A program made the translations under genes and the position numbers. A stretch of 64,000 bases of DNA from Taibaiella helva (lineage in GTDB: Bacteria; Bacteroidota; Bacteroidia; Chitinophagales; Chitinophagaceae). Under the pieces are notes generated by a model, which had not been told where the DNA came from, did no database searches, and worked only from the letters and a program-made list of their open reading frames with translations. The stretch spans positions 1 to 64,000 of the forward strand of contig NZ_QUZZ01000018.1 of assembly GCF_003545695.1 (NCBI RefSeq). Reading direction: 5' to 3'. Shown piece by piece: positions 5,259 through 21,960 of the stretch (positions are counted from its first letter, which is position 1; each line of letters begins with the position of its first letter).

Positions 5259-6629
5259 ATGAACTTAGAATTTGACGTAAAAAATGGTAACTCTATAATA
5301 TTAGTAGTTCAGAAACAAGCTAATGATGAAAATAAATATAATCTAATCGATAGCGATAAAGCTGTCTGGATGGAGTTACGATTTACTGGGAAAAACCTTG
5401 ATATTATAAGTCAATCGACAGATATTATTGATGATGCGGAAACAATAGATTCAAAGTTGGATTTGTTACTTCACTCTATTATCGAAGCCGAACGCTCAGG
5501 TACTGATGAATATAGCGAAGCAGGAGATAGTACAGAACTTAATCCATACGACCCAGATAAAATAAAAGTTCGTAGTGATAAAATATCTGTAACCCTTATT
5601 AGCAACATGATAGAAAGCGGAGATATTGACATGAATCCTGATTTTCAAAGAAATTTGGTTTGGAACAACTTTCAGAAGTCCAGACTTATCGAATCAATTC
5701 TCCTACGAATTCCCCTTCCAATGTTCTATTTCGCTGAAGACGATGAAGGGAAACTTTCTGTAGTTGATGGATTACAGCGACTTACAGCTATCAAGGAATT
5801 TATGGATAATAAATTTTCTCTGAGGGACCTACAGTATTTAACGGATTCTTGTTATGGGAAATATTATGAACACGAAGGGATAAAAAAAGGGTTAGATCCA
5901 AAGTATTTTAGGTGGTTTAACCTTACTACAATATCTGCCAACATTATAGATCCTACGTCTCCGTATAAAGTTAAATATGATATTTTTCGCAGAATAAATA
6001 CCGGAGGTAGGCCTTTAAATAACCAAGAAATCAGGAATTGTTTGACAGGACAGGGTTTACGCGATATTTTAAAGGAAATGACTGCATTACCAGAATTTAA
6101 ATCTGCAACGGATAATAGTATAAAAAGTACAAGAATGGATGATCAGGAAATAGCTTTGAGATTCCTTGTTTTTTTTATTATGTATGAGAAAAATAGAAAT
6201 ATAAATAGTTATAATGGTTATATGGATGCCACACTCGACGAATTTACTGAACTAAACATAAAGACAAAAAAGGAGGACTTAGAACATTATGTTGTACTTT
6301 TTTCTAATGCTATGAAAAACGCGGAATATCTTTTTGGTAAACGTCATGCTTTTAGAAAGATACTTCCAAAAGATATATCTCCTAATGCTCATAAACAGTT
6401 AATCAATAAGTCACTTTTTGTTTGCACCTCGGTACTTTTAGCTGAGTTCGGCCATGAAACTATTGTGGATTTTAATGAACGAGATTCTTTGCGATCTGAA
6501 ATTGCAATGATGATAGAAGAAGATGATGAGCTTTTTGCATATCTATCATATGGGACAAATGCTAAAGCTAACCTATTGTATACTTTCAAATCATTAAAAG
6601 AACTTTTTAATAAGAACATCGATTATTAA
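5259..6629 (+). CDS. DUF262 (GmrSD N-terminal, ParB-like NTPase) protein
   Basis: 456 aa. Residues ~100-300 carry the DUF262 signature: DFQRNLVW, then KSRLIESILLRIPLP, then the active-site motif VVDGLQRLTAI (about 168-178; family form DGQQR) and later FRRINTGGRPLNNQEIRNCL. In GmrSD and SspE this domain is a nucleotide-fuelled sensor or regulator joined to a DUF1524 HNH nuclease. Here no HNH or HxxP-type C-terminal nuclease is visible, so any effector must be elsewhere. The gene is A+T-rich compared with its surroundings and is followed after 2 bp by the ATPase gene, so this is one operon. A role in defence is inferred from the family and from the tight three-gene layout. Confidence 0.88.
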   Translation: MNLEFDVKNGNSIILVVQKQANDENKYNLIDSDKAVWMELRFTGKNLDIISQSTDIIDDAETIDSKLDLLLHSIIEAERSGTDEYSEAGDSTELNPYDPDKIKVRSDKISVTLISNMIESGDIDMNPDFQRNLVWNNFQKSRLIESILLRIPLPMFYFAEDDEGKLSVVDGLQRLTAIKEFMDNKFSLRDLQYLTDSCYGKYYEHEGIKKGLDPKYFRWFNLTTISANIIDPTSPYKVKYDIFRRINTGGRPLNNQEIRNCLTGQGLRDILKEMTALPEFKSATDNSIKSTRMDDQEIALRFLVFFIMYEKNRNINSYNGYMDATLDEFTELNIKTKKEDLEHYVVLFSNAMKNAEYLFGKRHAFRKILPKDISPNAHKQLINKSLFVCTSVLLAEFGHETIVDFNERDSLRSEIAMMIEEDDELFAYLSYGTNAKANLLYTFKSLKELFNKNIDY

Positions 6630-6631
6630 TC

Positions 6632-7774
6632 ATGATTAATCTAATCATTAAAAACTTCAAATGCTTTCGTGCAACTAGTATACCAGTCAATCAGCTTACT
6701 GTTTTGACAGGTGCCAATGGTAATGGTAAGAGTACTGCAATTCAATCTTTGTTATTGTTGAGAAGAACAATTGAACATTGTGGCAGTTGGGAAGACACAA
6801 GATATACTTATAACAAAATAAATGGATTAAGTGTCGAATTAAATGGTGTGTATTGTTTAAATCTCGGTAATAGTGAAAATATATTACCTACGGATTATGA
6901 TGAACCTAAAATCATATTGGGGATTTCGGTTAATGAAGGAAATTTTCAAATTGATTTCAGTACAAATACTGGACAAGAATTAGGGATTACACCGGAAAAT
7001 ATCATTAACGAATTAAAAGATAACCCACTTTTTTATCAAGAATTTTATTATTTAAATGCTGAAAGAATCGGACCAAGAATTACACAAACTATTAAATTTT
7101 ATGATTATCCCAATGTTGGCGCTAAAGGAGAGAACACAGCACAAATAATTTCAGATATAGATTCTAATTATCATTACCGCGTAGACGAAAAGCGTCAATT
7201 GAAGGATCCAACATATTTAAAAGGAAGCAGATTTCAGCATCAAATTAATGCTTGGCTTTCTTACATAATTGACGGAGCCACCATTATCCCTTATCGAGAT
7301 GATCACACACACACGTCAAGAATTGTAGTTGAAAGTAAATTCTCAAAAGGTAAGTCTACATTTCCAACCAATACGGGTTTCGGGATCAGTTATGTTTTGC
7401 CAATAATTGTTTCAGCACTTATTGCAGAAGAAGATCGTTTTTTAATAGTAGAGAATCCAGAAGCTCATTTGCATCCTTCTGCCCAATCACGTATGGGTTA
7501 TTTTCTTGCCGTTATTGCAAATGCAGGAGTTAAGATAATAATAGAGACTCATAGTGATCATATTATCAATGGGATACAATTAGCAGTTGCAAGAAAAAAT
7601 ATTGATTTTGAGAAGTGTACTATTAATTTCTTTTGTCAGGGAGATCAAGATCGTCAGCCAGAAGTAAAAACAATTCCCATTAATGAAAAAGGCGAGTTGC
7701 AAAGTTGGCCTAAAGGATTTTTTGATCAAAGTCAAATAGATTTGACCGAATTATTTAAAATGAGGAGGGAATAA
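6632..7774 (+). CDS. AAA family ATPase with DUF3696 C-terminus (SMC/OLD-like)
   Basis: 380 aa. Walker A is GANGNGKST (27-35) after the usual INLIIKNFKCF start of RecF/OLD-type ATPases. The Walker B region is FLIVENPEAHLHP (about 270-282), followed by IIIETHSDHIINGIQLAV, as in AAA_15/AAA_21 ATPases. The end (GELQSWPKGFFDQSQIDLTE) matches DUF3696. ATPases of this type act as sensors or motors in defence systems such as Septu, PARIS and Gabija, but here no TOPRIM or HNH partner is fused. It is separated by 2 bp from the DUF262 gene and abuts the next gene with no gap, so the three are probably translated together. The A+T-rich composition is shared across the operon. Confidence 0.9.
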   Translation: MINLIIKNFKCFRATSIPVNQLTVLTGANGNGKSTAIQSLLLLRRTIEHCGSWEDTRYTYNKINGLSVELNGVYCLNLGNSENILPTDYDEPKIILGISVNEGNFQIDFSTNTGQELGITPENIINELKDNPLFYQEFYYLNAERIGPRITQTIKFYDYPNVGAKGENTAQIISDIDSNYHYRVDEKRQLKDPTYLKGSRFQHQINAWLSYIIDGATIIPYRDDHTHTSRIVVESKFSKGKSTFPTNTGFGISYVLPIIVSALIAEEDRFLIVENPEAHLHPSAQSRMGYFLAVIANAGVKIIIETHSDHIINGIQLAVARKNIDFEKCTINFFCQGDQDRQPEVKTIPINEKGELQSWPKGFFDQSQIDLTELFKMRRE

Positions 7775-8470
7775 ATGGGGCAATTATTTTTACTTAATGA
7801 AGCTATCGTAGCTAAAGATGAACAGAACTTTAAGGAGGGAATGCTTCGCCTAATGGGAATAAATAAATATGAAAATCATAGATTTTTGAAACATAATTCC
7901 ATTTACGAAATTTCAGTTTTTGATGAGTTTATATATACTAAATTTAATGGACAGCTGGAACAGGAAATTTTGCGTTATATAGAGCAATTGACCTCCTATT
8001 CAGAGGATTATGTAGATAATGAAAGTAAAGCTAATGACTATTGTCATTCAACGTTTAACGGATTTTTAGGATTTGATTTTTCAAATAGTAAAATTAATAT
8101 TAATAAGCAAGTTGACTGTGAGCTAAAGTATAGAGACTGGTGCTTCAGATACTCACCTGATAAAGAATATTTGCTTACTGAGACTTTAATACATCCTAAC
8201 GAGAAAGAAAATCATTTTGCAGATCATCACGGAAAAAAAGAGTTGAGCGAATTTTGGGATATTATTAAATTTTGTCCATTTATTAGAAAAGGAAGATCTG
8301 ATAGGTTTGGTGGTAAAAACTTCATCCGTAAGATTCACGATGATGGCAAAATAGAAGTAGTGCTATATAAGACAAGTAAACAATATGCCATTATGCTTGA
8401 AACCACAGGAACTAATTTTCAGGAAACTCAAGCTATCGCTAATATAGTTGAAAGAGACTATAATCGTTAA
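7775..8470 (+). CDS. Unknown third protein of the DUF262-DUF3696 operon
   Basis: 231 aa, not recognised. It starts directly after the ATPase stop, with AGGAGGG a few bases upstream inside the ATPase end, an unusually strong Shine-Dalgarno-like site for this phylum. The protein is charged and soluble, without signal or membrane segments. A conserved-looking core is HPNEKENHFADHHGKKELSE (about 145-165), rich in His/Asp, followed by FWDIIKFCPFIRKG; the end (IMLETTGTNFQETQAIANIV) looks like a small helical cap. The His/Asp/Glu cluster could be catalytic or metal-binding, but no known nuclease motif is evident. By position it is the likely effector or regulator of the system, which is inference. 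Confidence 0.75.
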   Translation: MGQLFLLNEAIVAKDEQNFKEGMLRLMGINKYENHRFLKHNSIYEISVFDEFIYTKFNGQLEQEILRYIEQLTSYSEDYVDNESKANDYCHSTFNGFLGFDFSNSKININKQVDCELKYRDWCFRYSPDKEYLLTETLIHPNEKENHFADHHGKKELSEFWDIIKFCPFIRKGRSDRFGGKNFIRKIHDDGKIEVVLYKTSKQYAIMLETTGTNFQETQAIANIVERDYNR

Positions 8471-10434: not shown

Positions 10435-12678
10435 CTAGGGTTCATTACCGTTGATGATCTTCACGGGGAAGTAGTAATTGCCGTTGTTGTGGTTGGTGTA
10501 TTCGCTTACGATGGTCTTGTCCTGTACGTAGAGGATAAAGTTGTAATTGCAGCTGGTACCTTCGGCGAGCAATTGATCCATGGGCCATCCGGCGGGATTG
10601 GTAGCCATATCGAGGTTGGCCAGGTTGAAGCTGGTAAGGGTGCCTTCGGCGGGTACCAGCGCCGGCCTGGCGGGCACGGGACTGGTGCTGTGCACCAGCT
10701 GCGGCGCTGCGGATACAGAGCTCTGCTTCTGGATCACCATACGATAGAAATCAAAGTTGTCGCTGGTGGGGGCGGTGAAATCGGCAGGGATGATGAGCGG
10801 GTCGAAGGCGATGCCCTTGATGTCGATGGTCTTGAAATTGCCGCTGCTGTCGCGCATATAGAGGTCGGTGCAGGGCGGCTGATCGCCGATCTTGGTGATG
10901 ATGCCGGTAATGTTCTCGTTATCGACCCACACTTTCTGAATGTCATAGTAGTAAGTACCTTCGGTATCGACCACTTCGAGCAGCACGCTGTAGCGCCCGC
11001 TGGCGCCGGTACCCCAGGAAGATGGATTGAGCTTGGGCGTGGGGATATAGATGAAGGTATGCAGCAGGGGAATGTAGACGGGCATCTGGTAGGTGTAGAA
11101 GCCGTTGTTGGTGAGGCGCGACAAGGGGCCGGGCAGCTCGTTGTTGCTGATGATCTCGGCGGGTGTAAAGGTCGAATAGCTGCTGTAATCGGCGCGGCAG
11201 ATCTGCGTCCAGCCGTTGGCCGGGGCATTGTATTGCGGGCCGGTGGGCGGCTGCGCGCTGCTGAAGTCGTCGTGCTTGTAGTAGAGGGTGTACTCTTTGA
11301 TCTGCTCGCTGCTGCAGCCGTATACCCTGGCGGCGCCATAGACGCCCACCGTGCCGCCGATAGTGCCCAATGCAGAGGCGGCGCTGTCGCTGAGGTGCAA
11401 TTGTTCGTTGGGGTCGAGCACATCGGGTGCGGTACGCCCGCCTATATTTTTGATATAGACTTCGGCGGTGTCCAGCTGGAAGCTGATCCAGGCGTCGGCG
11501 GTGCTGCCGTTGCCGCTGTACACGCGCAGGTGCACGGTAAAGCTGGTGGAGGTGGCCACGCGTGCGCCGGCATTCTCGATGGCCTGCTGCACGTCGATAA
11601 AGCCCAGCGGGCCGTTGAAGACACTGTGATCGCCCTGGCTGAGCCCGGTATCGGGATTGCCTGCGGTATTGGCGTAGACGATGCTGTTGGCGATGGTATC
11701 TGTGCCGTTCCACAATAAGGATAGCTCGTAACGCTCGAGGCCGCAGCCGCTGGCGGTACCGGTAATGGGGATATACTTGCCGCTGAGCAGTTGGAAGCTG
11801 CCGTCGTAGCAGCCGGCAGGGGCTGTAAGGCCGGCCGACAGCGAGCCTTTGGGACACTCCACGCAAAAGTCGATGCAGAAGCAGTTGGACAGGTTGGAAC
11901 GGTCGCGGTCGTGCCCGCGCTGCCGGTTCTCATTCAGCAGCAGGGTGCCGTCGGCGGCTTCGATACGGAAATACACATCGGGACCGGCAGGCCATTCTAC
12001 ATTGAGCCAGCTGAAGATGGTATGGCTGTAATCGGCTACGGTATAGTAAATCTTGAAATGCCCGTCGTTGGCGGTAATGCCGTAGCCCAGGGGATCGTCC
12101 TGGATGAGGTCGACATCGAAGGCCAGCACTTTAACACCGCCTACCGGCTGCTTGCCTTTACAGTCGTGCACATGGCCGCAGATCACGTGAAGGCCAAACA
12201 GGCGGAGGATATTGCACCAGAAGCGATGCGGGATGGCGTATTCCCAATAAGCTGTTGCCGGGGCCTGCTGCTCGCGGATGCCGCCTTTCCATGCGGGCTG
12301 CAGCGTAGTGATGTGAAACTGCAAGGGGCCTTCTGCTTTGGGCTTCAGCGTCTCTCTTTGCTTAATGTCGAGGGGCAGGGTGTCGCAGGCAAAATCGATC
12401 TCCAGCGGACCACCTTTGTAGCCGGTTTTTTCGGCGTCGAATACAAAGGAGAAGTTACCTTGATCATCGGTCTCGGCTTCGGCGATCAGGCGTTTATCCA
12501 AAGCCTTTAATTCTTCTTCGCTGCGCTGGTGAAAGGTATCTTTTTCGCTGGCGACAGCCAGCACGGTGACTTCGGCCCTGGGGTCGGCCTGGTACAGCTT
12601 TACTTTGGCATGATAAAGCGGGTCGGAGCAATCGCCGCAATAATAGGCTTTAAGATTGCCTCTGAATTGGTGTTTCAT
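10435..12678 (-). CDS. Large hypothetical protein with carboxypeptidase-regulatory-like N-terminal domains
   Basis: 747 aa from the ATG at 12678 (MKHQFRGNLKAYYCGDCSDP); an in-frame ATG at 12702 would add 8 residues. No signal peptide or membrane segment is seen, and no T9SS tail. The first ~270 residues contain two stretches typical of transthyretin/carboxypeptidase-regulatory-like folds (PLYHAKVKLYQ...TDDQGNFSFVFD; then CGHVHDCKGKQPVGGVKVLAFD...ITANDGHFKIYY). Several Cys cluster around 285-310 (NCFCIDFCVECPKG). The rest is beta-rich and unrecognised. It is divergently placed (572 bp) from the GrpE/Hsp70 operon, which may be coincidence or a functional link. A structural or contractile-system-like role is only speculation. 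Confidence 0.75.
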   Translation of the reverse strand: MKHQFRGNLKAYYCGDCSDPLYHAKVKLYQADPRAEVTVLAVASEKDTFHQRSEEELKALDKRLIAEAETDDQGNFSFVFDAEKTGYKGGPLEIDFACDTLPLDIKQRETLKPKAEGPLQFHITTLQPAWKGGIREQQAPATAYWEYAIPHRFWCNILRLFGLHVICGHVHDCKGKQPVGGVKVLAFDVDLIQDDPLGYGITANDGHFKIYYTVADYSHTIFSWLNVEWPAGPDVYFRIEAADGTLLLNENRQRGHDRDRSNLSNCFCIDFCVECPKGSLSAGLTAPAGCYDGSFQLLSGKYIPITGTASGCGLERYELSLLWNGTDTIANSIVYANTAGNPDTGLSQGDHSVFNGPLGFIDVQQAIENAGARVATSTSFTVHLRVYSGNGSTADAWISFQLDTAEVYIKNIGGRTAPDVLDPNEQLHLSDSAASALGTIGGTVGVYGAARVYGCSSEQIKEYTLYYKHDDFSSAQPPTGPQYNAPANGWTQICRADYSSYSTFTPAEIISNNELPGPLSRLTNNGFYTYQMPVYIPLLHTFIYIPTPKLNPSSWGTGASGRYSVLLEVVDTEGTYYYDIQKVWVDNENITGIITKIGDQPPCTDLYMRDSSGNFKTIDIKGIAFDPLIIPADFTAPTSDNFDFYRMVIQKQSSVSAAPQLVHSTSPVPARPALVPAEGTLTSFNLANLDMATNPAGWPMDQLLAEGTSCNYNFILYVQDKTIVSEYTNHNNGNYYFPVKIINGNEP

Positions 12679-13250
12679 AGGATGGGTAAATTTGAAACGC
12701 ATGCCTACTCTGTTCCCTTTTCGGCTTCCGGGCGCTTACTCTTTTAAAGGATTTTGGGCTTCCTCCTGGTGGATGATGAAAGGCATAACCGGGTAAGGAC
12801 GGGTAACGGATACCTCGTCGCGGACAGGAAAAGATTTCCTGCCTGCGGGCCTCAAACGCAGTATCGTTTGGGAAAGATTAAGTCCGGTAATGCGTGCGGG
12901 AGTGGGACAGGAGAGCGCGTGCGTTCGTTAAGGGTTTACAGGTAGGGATCAGATAGGGGCGTTTTTTCTCCCGGTGATGAGGAAAGCGGAGAAGGATAGC
13001 ACAAAGGTAGCGCTGTATGCTACCGCGCCAATACGTTTTAAGGCGTATTTATGGCGCTGTACGTGGTGCATTAAGCTAAAGCGGGGGCTCCGGACGCTGT
13101 TATCCACAGGCTGTTTTTTTGTATTTTCAAAACGGATATCTGCAATTTTGCGCTATGCTGCACCGGCTGAAAATAACGGTCTTATCGTTTTTCCCGGCCC
13201 CGGTGATCGTATTTCGGAGACACACAATATCTTTACCAAAATTCTACACC
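12679..13250. other. Divergent intergenic region
   Basis: 572 bp between the leftward large hypothetical gene and the rightward GrpE-like gene. Open frames here have no protein-like character. I see no RNA gene, repeat or clear promoter box. Confidence 0.5.
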
Positions 13251-13565
13251 ATGGATGCCCTGATCGCAGTGATGAACCAGGTATTCGAGATCAGCCGGAA
13301 GCTGGAAGAGGAGCACCTTTCATCACGCTTTGAACGCAATTTCAACAAGCTGAACAATATCTTCGAGGAAGAAGGTTTTATCTGCAACAACCCGCTCGGT
13401 GAAAAATACACCGATGCCCGTACCGACTGCACTGCCAGCATCGCCGGGGCCGAAGGCCGCGATATGGTGATCACACAGGTGATCAAGCCGGTGATCTATC
13501 AAAAGAAGGATGGCGCCCTCAGCCTGGTGCAAAAGGGTATCGTGATCGTGGAAAGAAAAAAATAA
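13251..13565 (+). CDS. Short GrpE-like nucleotide exchange factor
   Basis: 104 aa from the ATG at 13251 (MDALIAVMNQVFEISRKLEE); a longer frame from 13119 has no plausible N-terminus. A helical N-terminal half is followed by a beta-rich half, GFICNNPLGEKYTDARTDCT and then VITQVIKPVIYQKKDGALSL...GIVIVE, which parallels the GrpE beta-wing (G...P.GE...DP...). It lacks the long coiled-coil dimerisation helix of housekeeping GrpE (usually ~180-200 aa). It is 6 bp upstream of an Hsp70 gene, so it probably serves that Hsp70 specifically as ADP/ATP exchange factor. Confidence 0.75.
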   Translation: MDALIAVMNQVFEISRKLEEEHLSSRFERNFNKLNNIFEEEGFICNNPLGEKYTDARTDCTASIAGAEGRDMVITQVIKPVIYQKKDGALSLVQKGIVIVERKK

Positions 13566-13571
13566 AAAGAG

Positions 13572-16115
13572 ATGAGACCTGTAAATTTCGGTATCGACCT
13601 GGGCACGACCAATTCGCTGATCGGCCGGTTCGATAACGGTAGCGTGACCGTGTACCAAAATCCCATCGGGCATAAAGAGACGCTGGCTTCGGTGGTCGCC
13701 TTCCGCAGCGACCGCATTCTTGTCGGCGATAAGGCCCGTGAGTATATGCTTAAAGATGCGGTCAATGTGTTTGGCGGCTTTAAGCGTCGCATGGGCACCG
13801 ATGAAAAATATTATGTGGTGAACCTGGATGAGAACGTGACGCCGGTGCAGCTGTCGGCTTATGTGCTGCAGGAGCTGCAGCGTTTTGTGCATGGTGGGGA
13901 AAAGCCCGAAGCGGCGGTGATCACCATCCCGGCTTCTTTCGATACCATGCAGAGCAATGCTACGCATACGGCCGGCAGGGAAGCGGGTCTTAAGGAGGTC
14001 TTTTTACTGCAGGAACCCATCGCCGCCAGCCTGGCCTATTTCAACCAGGCGCCCGGCGAAGATCATGAAGGCTGCTGGATCGTGTACGACCTTGGCGGCG
14101 GCACTTTCGACGTGGCGCTGGTGCAGATCAAAGAGGGCGAAATGAAGGTGGTCGATCATGAGGGCAACAATTTCCTGGGCGGCCTGGACTTCGACCTGAT
14201 GATCGTAGAGCAGCTGATCGTGCCGGAGATCGTGCGCCAGACGGGTATAGCCGATTTTGAAACAGAGCTGAGCACCGCCTACGGTCCTTATGAGAAGCTG
14301 TACTACGAGCTGCTGTACAAAGCGGAGGAAGCCAAGAAGGAGCTGTCGTCGTATGAAGCGACGGAGATAGAGTTCAGCACGACAATAGGCGATCGCCGCT
14401 ATGATTTCAATGTGACGATTGACAGAGCGGCTTTTAACCAATTGCTGGAAAAGCGGGTGGAAGAGACGCTGAGCATGCTGCGGCAGGTGCTGGAGCGTAA
14501 CCAGCTGGCGGCTGCCGACATTCGCCAGCTGATCCTGGTCGGCGGCAGCACTTTTATCCCTTATGTGCAGGAAAGGCTGGAGCTGGGTACGGGTATACCG
14601 GTGAACAAAAGCGTAGACCCGACCACTGCGGTAGCGGTAGGTGCGGCTTACTATGCTGCGAACAAGTATTATACGCCATCGGTATCGCCGGTGGAGGAGC
14701 ATGCCGATATCGGATCGCTGCTCGATAACATCGTGGCGGCCCCGGAGCAGCCGGAGGAGCCTGAAGTGCAGCTGGTGCTGTCGTACAGCAAAATGAGCAA
14801 GGAACCGGAAGAGGTGTTGCTGGTAAAGGTGAATGGCAATGTATTCAACTACAGCTACCGTATTGTGCGTGCCGACGGAGGCTTCGATACCGGCTTTATG
14901 GCCCTGAAGGCCAAGTTCACGGAGTTCCTGCCGCTGTTGCCCGGTGTTGCTAATGTGTTTCGCCTGACACTGTATGATGGACAGAACCGTGAGCTGCCGG
15001 CGCTGGGACAGGAGCTGACGATCACGCACGGGCAATACAGCATAGCCGGTCAGCCGCTGCCCAAAGACATCTGCATAGAGGTGGACGACCGGGAAAACCA
15101 TACGACGAAGCTGGAGCTGGTGTTTGAGAAAAACAGCATTCTGCCGCTGAAGAAAACCTTGTACCGGGAAATATCCAAGACGATCAAGAAAGGCAGCGAC
15201 GATAAGGTGATCATCAATATACAGGAAGGCGACCGCTATGCCCGGCCTTTGTCCAACCTTACGATAGGCTGTATCGAAATACAGGGCAAGGACCTGAAGT
15301 CCGACCTGATCAAAGGTTCCGACATTGAGATACAGCTATTGCTTTCGGATAACCGCGAACTGAGCACCGAAGTGTACCTCGTAATGACCGGGCAGGAGTT
15401 TAAGAATGTCTTCGCGCTTTCGGAAAAGTGCATCAGCGTCGCCCGCCTGCGCGAGCAGTTCAACGACCTGGAAGCGGAAATACGGAAGACGGTAAAGGGC
15501 TTTAATTACGAAGAGAACGAGATATGGGCGATACAGGCCAACAGCCTGCTCGACGGGCTGCTAAGCCATAAAGCATCTTTGCACAAGCTGAAAGACAAGG
15601 AGCGCTCGGATAAGAAATATGTGATCGCGGAAGCCATAGGCCGCATCTCACAGGAATACGATAAGATCGGCGGTAACGAGCGCCTGCAGCAGCTGCAGGC
15701 CGAATACCTGCATGCGCGCGACTATGCCGAACAGCAGCTGCCGGCCTGCGATTTTGAGCAGGACCGGCTGAAGGCCAGATTTGCGCAGCTGGTACAAAAC
15801 GAAAGCCAGGTGTTGCGTACGCGCAACCCTTCTATATTGCAGAAAGCGATCGGCCAGCTGAACGACCTGATCTGGGAGATACTGACCAATACCACCAGCT
15901 ATCTTATCGTTTACTTTCACCGGCTGAAGGCGGCCGGGCCCGATGCCTTTACCAATTATGGCGCGGCGCAGAGCATCGTGCGTATGGCGGATAAGGCGCT
16001 GGAGCAGGAACGTTTCTTCGAGTTCCGGCAGCATGTCTACAATCTCTCCCATTTGCTGCACAACGCGCAATCCATGGCGGGTACTACTGACTTTAAAGGC
16101 ACGGGAATAGGATAA
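13572..16115 (+). CDS. Divergent Hsp70 family chaperone
   Basis: 847 aa, longer than DnaK (~640). The N-terminal ATPase domain is intact: phosphate-1 loop FGIDLGTTNSLIG (residues 4-16), then EAAVITIPASFD (~115-125), phosphate-2 WIVYDLGGGTFDVALVQI (~175-192) and adenosine motif LILVGGSTFIPYVQ (~318-331). From ~390 on it departs from DnaK: an acidic linker, two beta-rich parts (the second, SDDKVIINIQEGDRYARPLS onward, resembling a substrate-binding beta-sandwich) and a long helical C-terminus with no DnaK-type EEVD-like end. It lies between a short GrpE-like gene (6-bp gap) and a membrane-anchored protein gene (1-bp gap), so it appears to be a dedicated chaperone module, not the housekeeping DnaK. 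Its client is unknown. Confidence 0.9.
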   Translation: MRPVNFGIDLGTTNSLIGRFDNGSVTVYQNPIGHKETLASVVAFRSDRILVGDKAREYMLKDAVNVFGGFKRRMGTDEKYYVVNLDENVTPVQLSAYVLQELQRFVHGGEKPEAAVITIPASFDTMQSNATHTAGREAGLKEVFLLQEPIAASLAYFNQAPGEDHEGCWIVYDLGGGTFDVALVQIKEGEMKVVDHEGNNFLGGLDFDLMIVEQLIVPEIVRQTGIADFETELSTAYGPYEKLYYELLYKAEEAKKELSSYEATEIEFSTTIGDRRYDFNVTIDRAAFNQLLEKRVEETLSMLRQVLERNQLAAADIRQLILVGGSTFIPYVQERLELGTGIPVNKSVDPTTAVAVGAAYYAANKYYTPSVSPVEEHADIGSLLDNIVAAPEQPEEPEVQLVLSYSKMSKEPEEVLLVKVNGNVFNYSYRIVRADGGFDTGFMALKAKFTEFLPLLPGVANVFRLTLYDGQNRELPALGQELTITHGQYSIAGQPLPKDICIEVDDRENHTTKLELVFEKNSILPLKKTLYREISKTIKKGSDDKVIINIQEGDRYARPLSNLTIGCIEIQGKDLKSDLIKGSDIEIQLLLSDNRELSTEVYLVMTGQEFKNVFALSEKCISVARLREQFNDLEAEIRKTVKGFNYEENEIWAIQANSLLDGLLSHKASLHKLKDKERSDKKYVIAEAIGRISQEYDKIGGNERLQQLQAEYLHARDYAEQQLPACDFEQDRLKARFAQLVQNESQVLRTRNPSILQKAIGQLNDLIWEILTNTTSYLIVYFHRLKAAGPDAFTNYGAAQSIVRMADKALEQERFFEFRQHVYNLSHLLHNAQSMAGTTDFKGTGIG

Positions 16116-16116
16116 T

Positions 16117-17604
16117 ATGGCGTACCAATCATTGATCCGCTTTCTTGACTATGCGGGCGTAGCGCCGGAAGCCGTGGCTACGACGAGCATCACCCGGATG
16201 AAGAAGCTGGCCCAGGCTGAATTTGCCTTGCAGCCCGGCGGCATCATTACGCTGGAGGGCATCAGCTTTACCAGCAATGATGTGCTGCAGGAGCTGGACC
16301 ATCCCGATGTGCAGCAGCGGCTGCGCTGCCACCTCCTGCTGTGGGAACATAAAGATCTGCTGGAACTGCTGGAGCAGGATCATCTGAACATGGACCGTAT
16401 GGACCAGTGGCGCGGCCTGTGTTACGATGTGGGCTTCCGCAATTTTATATCGTCCTATTTTGCCACGGCTTTTCACAGCGCCATGACTTCTTTGCTGGGC
16501 AATAAGGATCTCTACAATGCGTCGATCTGGATCGATTACCTGGCCTTTGTACTGCCCGAAGATGAAGAGCGGGCCCTGCGCAGCGTACGGCTTTTCCTGG
16601 AAGATGCCCTGAAGCTGTTCCGCAACCTGAACGATACTTCTTACCGCGACCGGATGGAAGAGCTGAAGGTGTGGCGCGACGATTCCTGGAGCCTGTTTAT
16701 CGATAAGCTACCGCGTTCGCTGATGCCTTATGCGGATGAGCTGGCCAATGCTATCATCAATTTTACGGTGCGGATACAGAAGGCCGACCGAAAGCTGTGC
16801 TTTGAGCTGAGCTCGGGCCTGGTGGGCCTGCAGCAGGTGAATTATTCGCTGCGGGGACTGATAAGGAATAACCATGAGATCTATAGGAAGAAGCTGAACC
16901 GGGGGGTATTCAATATGCCGTCGCTCTACCCGGTTGTGGTAGGATTGATCATCCTGATCCGTGTGCTGTCCGGTATGGATTTTTCCAGCAGCAGTTCGGG
17001 AAACAATACGGAGGGTGAATACCAGGCAACGATGGAAGGCCTCGCCTACCAAGGCATCCGGCTTTTTTTTAATCACCAGTACGGGACTGGTCAACCGCCT
17101 GCCCGGGGGAGGAAACAAAGCCTGAGAAATGTCGTCTTCTCCGATAAGCCGGTCTATCTTTTTCTCGAAAACTGGCCCGGCGACGGCCTGTCTCCGGTAG
17201 CCCTGGTCAACAATACCCGGGAACGGATCAAGGTCGATCTGATCAGCGCAGGTAATGTATCCAATGTCACTGTAGGGTCTCATGATATATTGGGTATACA
17301 GCCCGAGCGGGAGCACAATATGGATATGATACTGACTTTTCACCAGGAAGATCCCAGGCTGACTGTCGTTCCGGAGACGAAATACCTGCAATTCCTGTTT
17401 GTCTCGGCTGAACCTGGAAGAGTACGGCATAACCTGAATTTCGCAAAAGAAGAGAGGGTAAGCCTGCCTTTGATACAGCCATCCTCGCTGAAAGACATAC
17501 CGCTGGTAATGACCATTGATGAAAGGGATAGTGGCTACGTCTTTTCGCTGAAAGGAAAGGCAGGGGCAGTCAATTACCGAACCTTACCTGCTGCAAAGAA
17601 ATGA
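16117..17604 (+). CDS. Membrane-anchored hypothetical protein of the Hsp70 operon
   Basis: 495 aa, not recognised. The first ~265 residues are helical and cytosolic in character (FLDYAGVAPEAVATTSI..., HLLLWEHKDLLELLEQDHLN). One hydrophobic segment follows at about 273-288 (LYPVVVGLIILIRVLS), then a Ser-rich linker (SSSSSG) and a beta-rich domain to the end. This suggests one membrane span with separate domains on either side. The start is 1 bp after the Hsp70 stop, so translation is coupled. It may present clients to, or be remodelled by, the Hsp70; this is inferred from gene order. The 3' end is the left boundary of a 480-bp duplicated segment. Confidence 0.75.
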   Translation: MAYQSLIRFLDYAGVAPEAVATTSITRMKKLAQAEFALQPGGIITLEGISFTSNDVLQELDHPDVQQRLRCHLLLWEHKDLLELLEQDHLNMDRMDQWRGLCYDVGFRNFISSYFATAFHSAMTSLLGNKDLYNASIWIDYLAFVLPEDEERALRSVRLFLEDALKLFRNLNDTSYRDRMEELKVWRDDSWSLFIDKLPRSLMPYADELANAIINFTVRIQKADRKLCFELSSGLVGLQQVNYSLRGLIRNNHEIYRKKLNRGVFNMPSLYPVVVGLIILIRVLSGMDFSSSSSGNNTEGEYQATMEGLAYQGIRLFFNHQYGTGQPPARGRKQSLRNVVFSDKPVYLFLENWPGDGLSPVALVNNTRERIKVDLISAGNVSNVTVGSHDILGIQPEREHNMDMILTFHQEDPRLTVVPETKYLQFLFVSAEPGRVRHNLNFAKEERVSLPLIQPSSLKDIPLVMTIDERDSGYVFSLKGKAGAVNYRTLPAAKK

Positions 17605-21239: not shown

Positions 21240-21960
21240 GTCTACAAATGTTTTGCTCCTACGGAGCAGTTAAGGCCTTCTCCCAGATTCAATGTCAGCG
21301 GCCTGCTGCACCACCGTGCCGCGAGCGGCGTTACACATTGTAGCACTCTCTATGCCATACTGAGGTCTGCACCGCAACCGAAGTATCTCAAGTCGCGCCA
21401 ATAAAGCAATTGAGATGCTTCATACCGCATGCTGCGCAAGCTATATTCAGCATGATAATGGGGTGTATAGCATTGCAGCCGGTAAAAACACAGCCCTTGC
21501 CGGTGTGCTTGTATCATAAGGCTTGCCGTTCAGGTCGCTATCGCGCCCCGACCGGCGCTGCACATACTACGGCGCCATTACATGGATGGTCGCTTTGTTA
21601 CAAACCTTTTGCGCCTACGGAGCAGTTAAGGCCTTCTCCAGGTTCAATGTCAGCAGCTGGTTGCACCACCGTGCCGCGAGCGGCGCTACACATTGTAGCA
21701 CTCTCGATGTCGTACTGAGGTCTGCGCAGCAACCGAAGTATCTCAAGTCCCGCCAATAAAGCAATTGAGACGCTTCATACCGCATGCTGCGCAAGCTATA
21801 TTCAGCATGATAATGGGGTGTATAGCATTGCAGCCGGTAAAAACACAGCCCTTGCCGGTGTATGCTTGTATCATAAGGCTTACCGTTCAGGTCGCTATCG
21901 CGTCCCGACCGGCGCCGCCTGCGAGGATACATTCACAAAACAAGGACTTGGTGTCCTGGC
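21240..21960. repeat. 356-bp direct repeat pair
   Basis: CCTACGGAGCAGTTAAGGCC occurs at 21258 and 21614, and nearly the whole 356-bp unit is repeated (to about 21604 and 21930). Units include CATACTGAGGTCTGC...CAACCGAAGTATCTCAAG, related to the 8.8 kb landmark, and CCGTTCAGGTCGCTATCGCG followed by CCGACCGG, related to motifs at 1-620 and 17.7-18.3 kb. Confidence 0.88.

Follow-up and report, generated by a model that had tools for sequence, protein, structure and literature searches.

A conserved operon encoding a GrpE-fold protein, a divergent Hsp70 and a third protein with a predicted membrane span in Taibaiella helva

The operon and its setting

Three consecutive genes lie on the forward strand of the window, as we call the whole analysed stretch of 64,000 nucleotides from Taibaiella helva (contig NZ_QUZZ01000018.1, positions 1 to 64,000). 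The first (13251..13565, +; 104 aa) encodes a protein resembling nucleotide exchange factors of the GrpE fold, the second (13572..16115, +; 847 aa) an Hsp70 of a distinct subfamily, and the third (16117..17604, +; 495 aa) a single-span membrane protein, in the following p495. According to the ORFs of the window, 6 bp separate the GrpE-like from the Hsp70 gene and 1 bp the Hsp70 gene from the third, exactly as an earlier note, made from the sequence alone, had recorded. The Hsp70 is the sole protein of the three that Pfam recognizes, and the match is confined to its ATPase half. Since the GrpE-like gene is accompanied by an Hsp70 at all of its 71 loci in other genomes and by the third family at 58 of them, the operon is not a chance arrangement.

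Housekeeping chaperones are encoded elsewhere in the genome, namely a full-length DnaK on C34 (657-aa frame, 4e-267) and a true GrpE on C21 (5.8e-38), which is followed by a DnaJ. Therefore, the two arguments by which the earlier note had set this locus apart from the housekeeping dnaK locus, i.e., the lack of an adjacent dnaJ and the atypical sizes of both factors, hold, and its reservation that this Hsp70 might be the only one of the genome falls away.

Upstream of the triad, at a distance of 4.8 kb, PADLOC detects a Nantosuelta-type defence system of three genes (5259-8470, +; NsnA 9.8e-110, NsnB 2.9e-106, NsnC 2.5e-31). Divergently from the triad, a 755-aa protein is encoded (10435-12702, −), whose transthyretin-like match is weak (0.0011) and under the cut-off. 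The earlier note had given this neighbour 747 aa, which is the length of its relative in the sister species (L019); at L020 of the same genus no relative is present, and the protein was rejected as a part of the module. Downstream, two ORFs at 21410 and 21765 contain the near-identical peptide FIPHAAQAIFSMIMGCIALQPVKTQPLPV, which suggests that the DNA at 21410-21932 holds a direct repeat.

The GrpE-fold protein and the Hsp70

The 104-aa protein had been described as a truncated GrpE, and its fold bears this out. An AlphaFold2 model built from 58 relatives (pLDDT 93.9) consists of a short helical arm (residues 2-40) and a beta-wing (residues 43-102), and the 12 best matches in a PDB fold search with this model are all GrpE or GrpEL1 (best E 2.2e-3, probability up to 1.00, query TM 0.46-0.62). 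Sequence libraries did not reveal this relationship: PF01025 matches neither the protein of the window nor appears among the families shown for the 58 relatives, and a PDB sequence search returned nothing significant. Aligned with 30 true Bacteroidota GrpEs using hhalign, however, the profile scores 23.0, whereas 150 column shuffles reach 20.0 at most, and the alignment is in the correct register where helix and beta-wing meet. The protein is shorter than GrpE, as most of the long helix is missing. Thus, as modelled, the 104-aa protein has a GrpE fold with helical arm and beta-wing, and we regard it as a putative nucleotide exchange factor of its Hsp70.

In the Hsp70, the Pfam family HSP70 (PF00012) matches with 1.1e-70 and is limited to residues 6-363, i.e., the ATPase domain. 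Against the NCBIfam DnaK equivalog TIGR02350, the protein reaches 236.9 bits at a cut-off of 822.55 and is, consequently, not a canonical DnaK; a tree against DnaK gives local support of 0.67 for the ingroup and of 0.87 for the subfamily clade. The earlier note had called its C-terminus divergent. It is divergent indeed, but an inserted domain, a recognizable substrate-binding beta domain (SBD-beta) and a long tail can be distinguished. The nucleotide-binding domain (NBD), as delimited in the residue tables, comprises residues 1-370 (13572..14681, +). Between it and the SBD-beta lies the subfamily-specific inserted domain (approximately residues 385-500; 14724..15071, +), which stands in place of the VLLLD linker and carries a conserved YRI.R.DGGFD.G motif. 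It has no match to the DnaK substrate-binding domain in hhalign, and a profile of residues 400-640 found no match in a PDB sequence search. The SBD-beta core follows at residues 514-609 (15111..15398, +) and scores 31.5 against the DnaK SBD-beta in hhalign, 100 shuffles reaching no more than 19.7. The remainder (15399..16112, +; taken from the family alignment) is a long C-terminal region with an FKGTGIG motif at its end; it is presumed to form a helical lid and matches the DnaK lid weakly in hhalign. With both an ATPase domain and a substrate-binding beta domain found, the protein can be assigned to the Hsp70 superfamily by sequence.

To compare functional residues, 75 subfamily members were tabulated against 25 DnaKs, the substituted positions being assigned by one alignment method. 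The intact ATPase motifs reported for the 847-aa protein proved to be a property of the subfamily: K70, P143, T199, D8 and the GTTNS/GGGT motifs are kept in 75/75 members (with one T12S), and E171 is kept in 74, the remaining one having the ambiguous letter X. The surface that receives J-domains in DnaK looks different. There, D35 of the HPD motif contacts R167 of the Hsp70 and H33 contacts L391, basic J-domain residues contact E206, D211 and E217, and D326 is part of the clamp between NBD and SBD (PMC8215388, PMC13012618). R167, N170 and E217 are invariant in the 25 DnaKs; in the Hsp70 of the window, these positions are F144, Q147 and K192, and E206 is replaced by Q185. Throughout the subfamily, hardly any of the 75 members retain R167 (mostly, V, F, L or I is found instead), N170 is Q in 70/75, E217 is K or R in 68/75, and position 206 is K or R in 43/75. 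Y145, R151, D326 and R345, too, are replaced in most or all members, and the VLLLD linker, invariant or nearly so in the 25 DnaKs, is absent or not alignable. Most of these losses also apply to more distant relatives, which are encoded in other genomes and on plasmids of Sinorhizobium, Vibrio and Haliscomenobacter. Judged computationally from these alignments, the subfamily keeps the checked catalytic residues and appears to have lost the canonical contacts by which DnaK docks J-domains.

The third protein and its likeness to J-domains

p495 consists of a presumably cytosolic helical domain, one membrane span and a C-terminal beta domain predicted to be exported (16117..17604, +; AlphaFold2 model and family alignments). 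The model shows a confidently predicted, all-helical domain at residues 1-262 with a beta-hairpin at 43-52. The predicted span (residues 271-287; 16927..16977, +) coincides with a model helix at 271-285, and among the 70 relatives that are 270 aa or longer, 67 have a hydrophobic 17-mer. This agrees with the suggestion in the earlier note that the system acts at the membrane. Since positive charge around the span is higher on the N-terminal side in more family members than the reverse (42 vs. 12), the helical domain is probably cytosolic, which would place the N-terminus of p495 in the cytosol and its C-terminal domain outside. The C-terminal domain (residues 339-490; 17131..17586, +) is rich in beta structure and modelled with moderate to low confidence; in relatives it is variable or absent, and 18 of 67 members stop within 40 aa of the span. 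Neither Pfam nor NCBIfam matches p495, in line with its description as a single-span protein of unknown family, but it does have relatives, which occur at 58 of the 71 loci.

The earlier note had stated that no dnaJ is adjacent. This is correct insofar as no J-domain with an HPD motif is present, but the N-terminus of p495 is itself probably a degenerate J-domain (residues 1-92; 16117..16392, +), the hairpin at 43-52 taking the place of the would-be HPD loop. The evidence is weak and transitive. Pooled N-termini of the third family score 15.5 against J-domains, a value reached by 2/150 shuffles. After the family was divided into subtypes, a sister subtype, encoded upstream in Flavobacterium and Chitinophaga, scored 24.9 in hhalign, which was reached by 0/150 shuffles (maximum 19.5), and this alignment spans J helices I-II. 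The subtype of the window has no match to J-domains on its own (25/150 shuffles reach its score); it is homologous to the sister subtype (4e-11). Because the split was made after the pooled profile had given 2/150, the evidence for J-domain descent is post hoc as well as transitive. HPD is absent from the relevant loop in all 74 members, and three HPD strings occur elsewhere in the proteins. No J-domain is found among the Pfam families shown for the third family, and a PDB sequence search with the third protein returned nothing significant.

Further support comes from sister operons, which are built around a distant Hsp70 of the same group and combine a J-like NPYRILGV protein or a similar one, a coiled-coil membrane protein, the Hsp70, a protein kinase-AAA fusion, a TerB-like protein and sometimes DUF6804 (L312, L313, L314, L315, L316, L269, L120). 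The NPYRILGV protein occupies a position comparable to that of the third protein and scores 24.6 against J-domains and 21.3 against the third family; neither value was reached in 100 shuffles. At two of these loci, proteins upstream of the Hsp70 match the GrpE-like profile weakly (4e-5 to 7e-5). L312 contains two tandem Hsp70 genes.

The earlier note had suggested a chaperone tied to one client. In a version of this idea, p495 would be a dedicated client or effector: Hsp70 and GrpE-like protein would keep it, as a sensor or effector in the membrane, in its folded or inactive state, and its likeness to J-domains would be a chance similarity of helical hairpins. Such a role would agree with the widely variable C-terminal domain, with the missing direct J-domain match of the window subtype, and with third-family paralogues that have no Hsp70 nearby; moreover, no J-domain is present among the 50 matches listed from a PDB fold search with the p495 model, all of which are poor. 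On the other hand, conservation of N-terminal domain and span combined with a variable C-terminus is the pattern expected of an adaptor that binds a partner. The match of the sister subtype to J helices I-II exceeds all 150 shuffles, and the sister operons hold a second J-like protein in a comparable position. We consider the client role somewhat unlikely; p495 looks more like an anchor with a degenerate J-domain than like a client.

Distribution and proposed function

A profile of the 104-aa protein was used to scan 84,980 GTDB species genomes. It detected 71 loci, mostly in Bacteroidota, with a few records labelled KSB1, Ignavibacteriae or beta-proteobacterium. The Hsp70 is present in 71/71. 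The distance from the GrpE-like to the Hsp70 gene could be measured at 62 loci and lies between −60 and +50 bp at 52 of them. The earlier note had proposed a survey for the three-gene order, which proved to vary: the third gene is located upstream on the same strand in 30 cases, downstream on the same strand in 14, downstream on the opposite strand in 11 and upstream on the opposite strand in 3. At the 13 of 71 loci where it was not detected, seven are at contig ends. Since membership remains constant while the order shifts, we take this as good evidence of joint function.

These findings bear on a further explanation, by which DnaK and GrpE were merely duplicated and the third gene is a chance neighbour. 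There are precedents for a DnaK paralogue that has a GrpE to itself: MxDnaK2 of Myxococcus is a second Hsp70 whose operon also encodes its nucleotide exchange factor (MXAN_6672), as in the triad, and interactions with membrane proteins are reported for it (PMC11019930). MxDnaK2, however, is counted among the DnaK homologues, works with J-proteins (PMC11019930) and has no third partner of the p495 family. An Hsp70 with an inserted domain but neither VLLLD linker nor J-domain contacts, a GrpE-like protein beyond the reach of the Pfam GrpE family and a neighbouring gene conserved in four arrangements make a mere duplicate very improbable.

Linkage was also assessed from the side of the third protein. 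With cut-offs of E<1e-10 for the third family and E<1e-50 for the Hsp70 subfamily, applied to the same 396 class-level genomes, 18 have both, 3 the third family only, 5 the Hsp70 only and 370 neither. The third family is, accordingly, not widespread without the Hsp70, a doubt that had been raised in the earlier note. At the Hsp70-only loci L301 and L303, and at L305, the start of a convergent neighbour resembles, by eye, a diverged third-family protein. Distance matrices correlate at 0.85-0.88, which in part reflects shared species history. Approximately 13 loci have a third-family gene and no adjacent Hsp70 or GrpE-like gene (L243, L245-L252, L255, L260, L261, L263, L264); a strong Hsp70 match was found in 6 of 16 genomes tested among these cases, and the complete genome G150 has a 444-aa third-family copy and no Hsp70 of this subfamily. 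Matches in G402 and G838 were weak, appeared GTPase-like by eye and were rejected as false positives.

The presence of the triad is patchy, the GrpE-like protein being found in 7 of 392 phylum genomes. Its spread outside Bacteroidota was seen from plasmid records and the named loci. On a conjugative Pseudomonas plasmid, third-family protein, GrpE-like protein and Hsp70 are encoded in one block, and this copy falls inside a clade dominated by Bacteroidota, grouping with a beta-proteobacterial MAG at a support of 1.0, which is consistent with horizontal transfer.

Patchiness and transfer to a conjugative plasmid are also what an anti-phage or inter-element conflict system would show, with the Hsp70 cycle as the gate of its membrane effector. 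The Nantosuelta system upstream in the window, the kinase-AAA and TerB genes of the sister operons, one of which is plasmid-borne and adjoins BREX genes, and published conflict systems with HSP70, GrpE and DnaJ-domain proteins point in the same direction. In the latter, centred on GAP1-N2 GTPases, gene neighbourhoods contain HSP70 and GrpE, as the triad does, and some a DnaJ-domain protein; such neighbourhoods are reported chiefly from actinobacteria and firmicutes (PMC7159879). Beside the triad, however, neither GAP1-N2 nor a GTPase or FNIII component was seen, and no recognizable toxic domain is present within it. PADLOC 2.0.0 returned 0 families at E <= 0.01 for any of the three proteins. 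Downstream of some triads, TerB-like, DUF6804-like or M50-like genes are found, and a scan of 111 neighbouring proteins gave defence matches that are scattered, with housekeeping genes, among them RecA and thiolase, also there and no consistent defence partner. A defence function is possible but unsupported, and we rate this explanation as unlikely.

We favour, at slightly better than even confidence, a dedicated, membrane-tethered and rewired Hsp70 machine as the product of the operon. Such a machine would be self-contained and work beside the housekeeping DnaK, DnaJ and GrpE. The Hsp70 would bind and hydrolyse ATP in its canonical NBD and hold a client in its divergent SBD-beta, and the GrpE-fold protein would reset it through nucleotide exchange. 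The third protein would be a membrane-anchored co-chaperone with a cytosolic N-terminus of J-domain descent, a descent to which we attach moderate confidence given the alignments; it would position the Hsp70 on the cytosolic side of the cytoplasmic membrane, and specificity would probably come from the variable C-terminal domain of this third protein. We infer that the three proteins form a physical complex and that they function at the membrane.

J-proteins are generally taken to trigger Hsp70 through one universal switch, the contact between HPD and R167. Because the HPD loop and the matching surface of the Hsp70 (R167, N170, E206, E217 and VLLLD) are both lost here, coupling would proceed through a rewired contact, plausibly with the inserted domain, and not through the standard HPD trigger. 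The wider claim is more tentative, and we hold it at a little less than even confidence: this would be a lineage of machines in which Hsp70 and J-domain partner have together given up the HPD/R167 trigger, along with the VLLLD linker, and in which hydrolysis is coupled to a J-like partner, anchored in the membrane and devoid of HPD, through some other contact, possibly one that involves the inserted domain. If true, it would offer a direct way to find out by which other means ATP hydrolysis and client binding can be coupled, and it would provide names and a common logic for proteins that, in Bacteroidota and on plasmids, are annotated as “Hsp70 family protein” or “hypothetical protein”. The patchy distribution and the plasmid carriage would suit a conditional function, for example in envelope stress or defence.

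Compared to the DnaK-DnaJ-GrpE machine, the triad shares the ATPase domain, the SBD-beta and a GrpE-fold factor, so that all three component types are plausibly present. It differs by the inserted domain, the missing VLLLD linker, the lost J-domain contacts, the truncated GrpE, a J-like protein that is HPD-less and membrane-anchored, and its patchy distribution. In component types, it can be likened to the mitochondrial import motor, which comprises a membrane-tethered mtHsp70, the GrpE-type factor Mge1, Pam18 and the J-like, HPD-less Pam16/Tim16. That motor includes an active HPD protein as well, for which no counterpart was found in the operon. The cyanobacterial DnaK1-DnaJ3-GrpE system, compared by description, is likewise a specialised Hsp70 system at a membrane machine, being tied to the type IV pilus motor, but DnaJ3 is described as a DnaJ partner (PMC9239167). 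In open-licence papers, we found these related systems and no description of the present combination, in agreement with the earlier note, which had deemed the system uncharacterised; such an absence is no proof of novelty.

Two observations concern individual loci. In Flavobacterium aurantiibacter, two contigs carry triads with identical gene sizes and identical downstream genes (L087 and L088), which suggests a recent duplication or a mobile copy. At Chitinophaga-type loci (L055, L056, L095, L097, L101, L109), genes for proteins of approximately 1061, 473 and 208 aa precede the triad on the same strand; judged from size alone, these are typical of an RND efflux pump.
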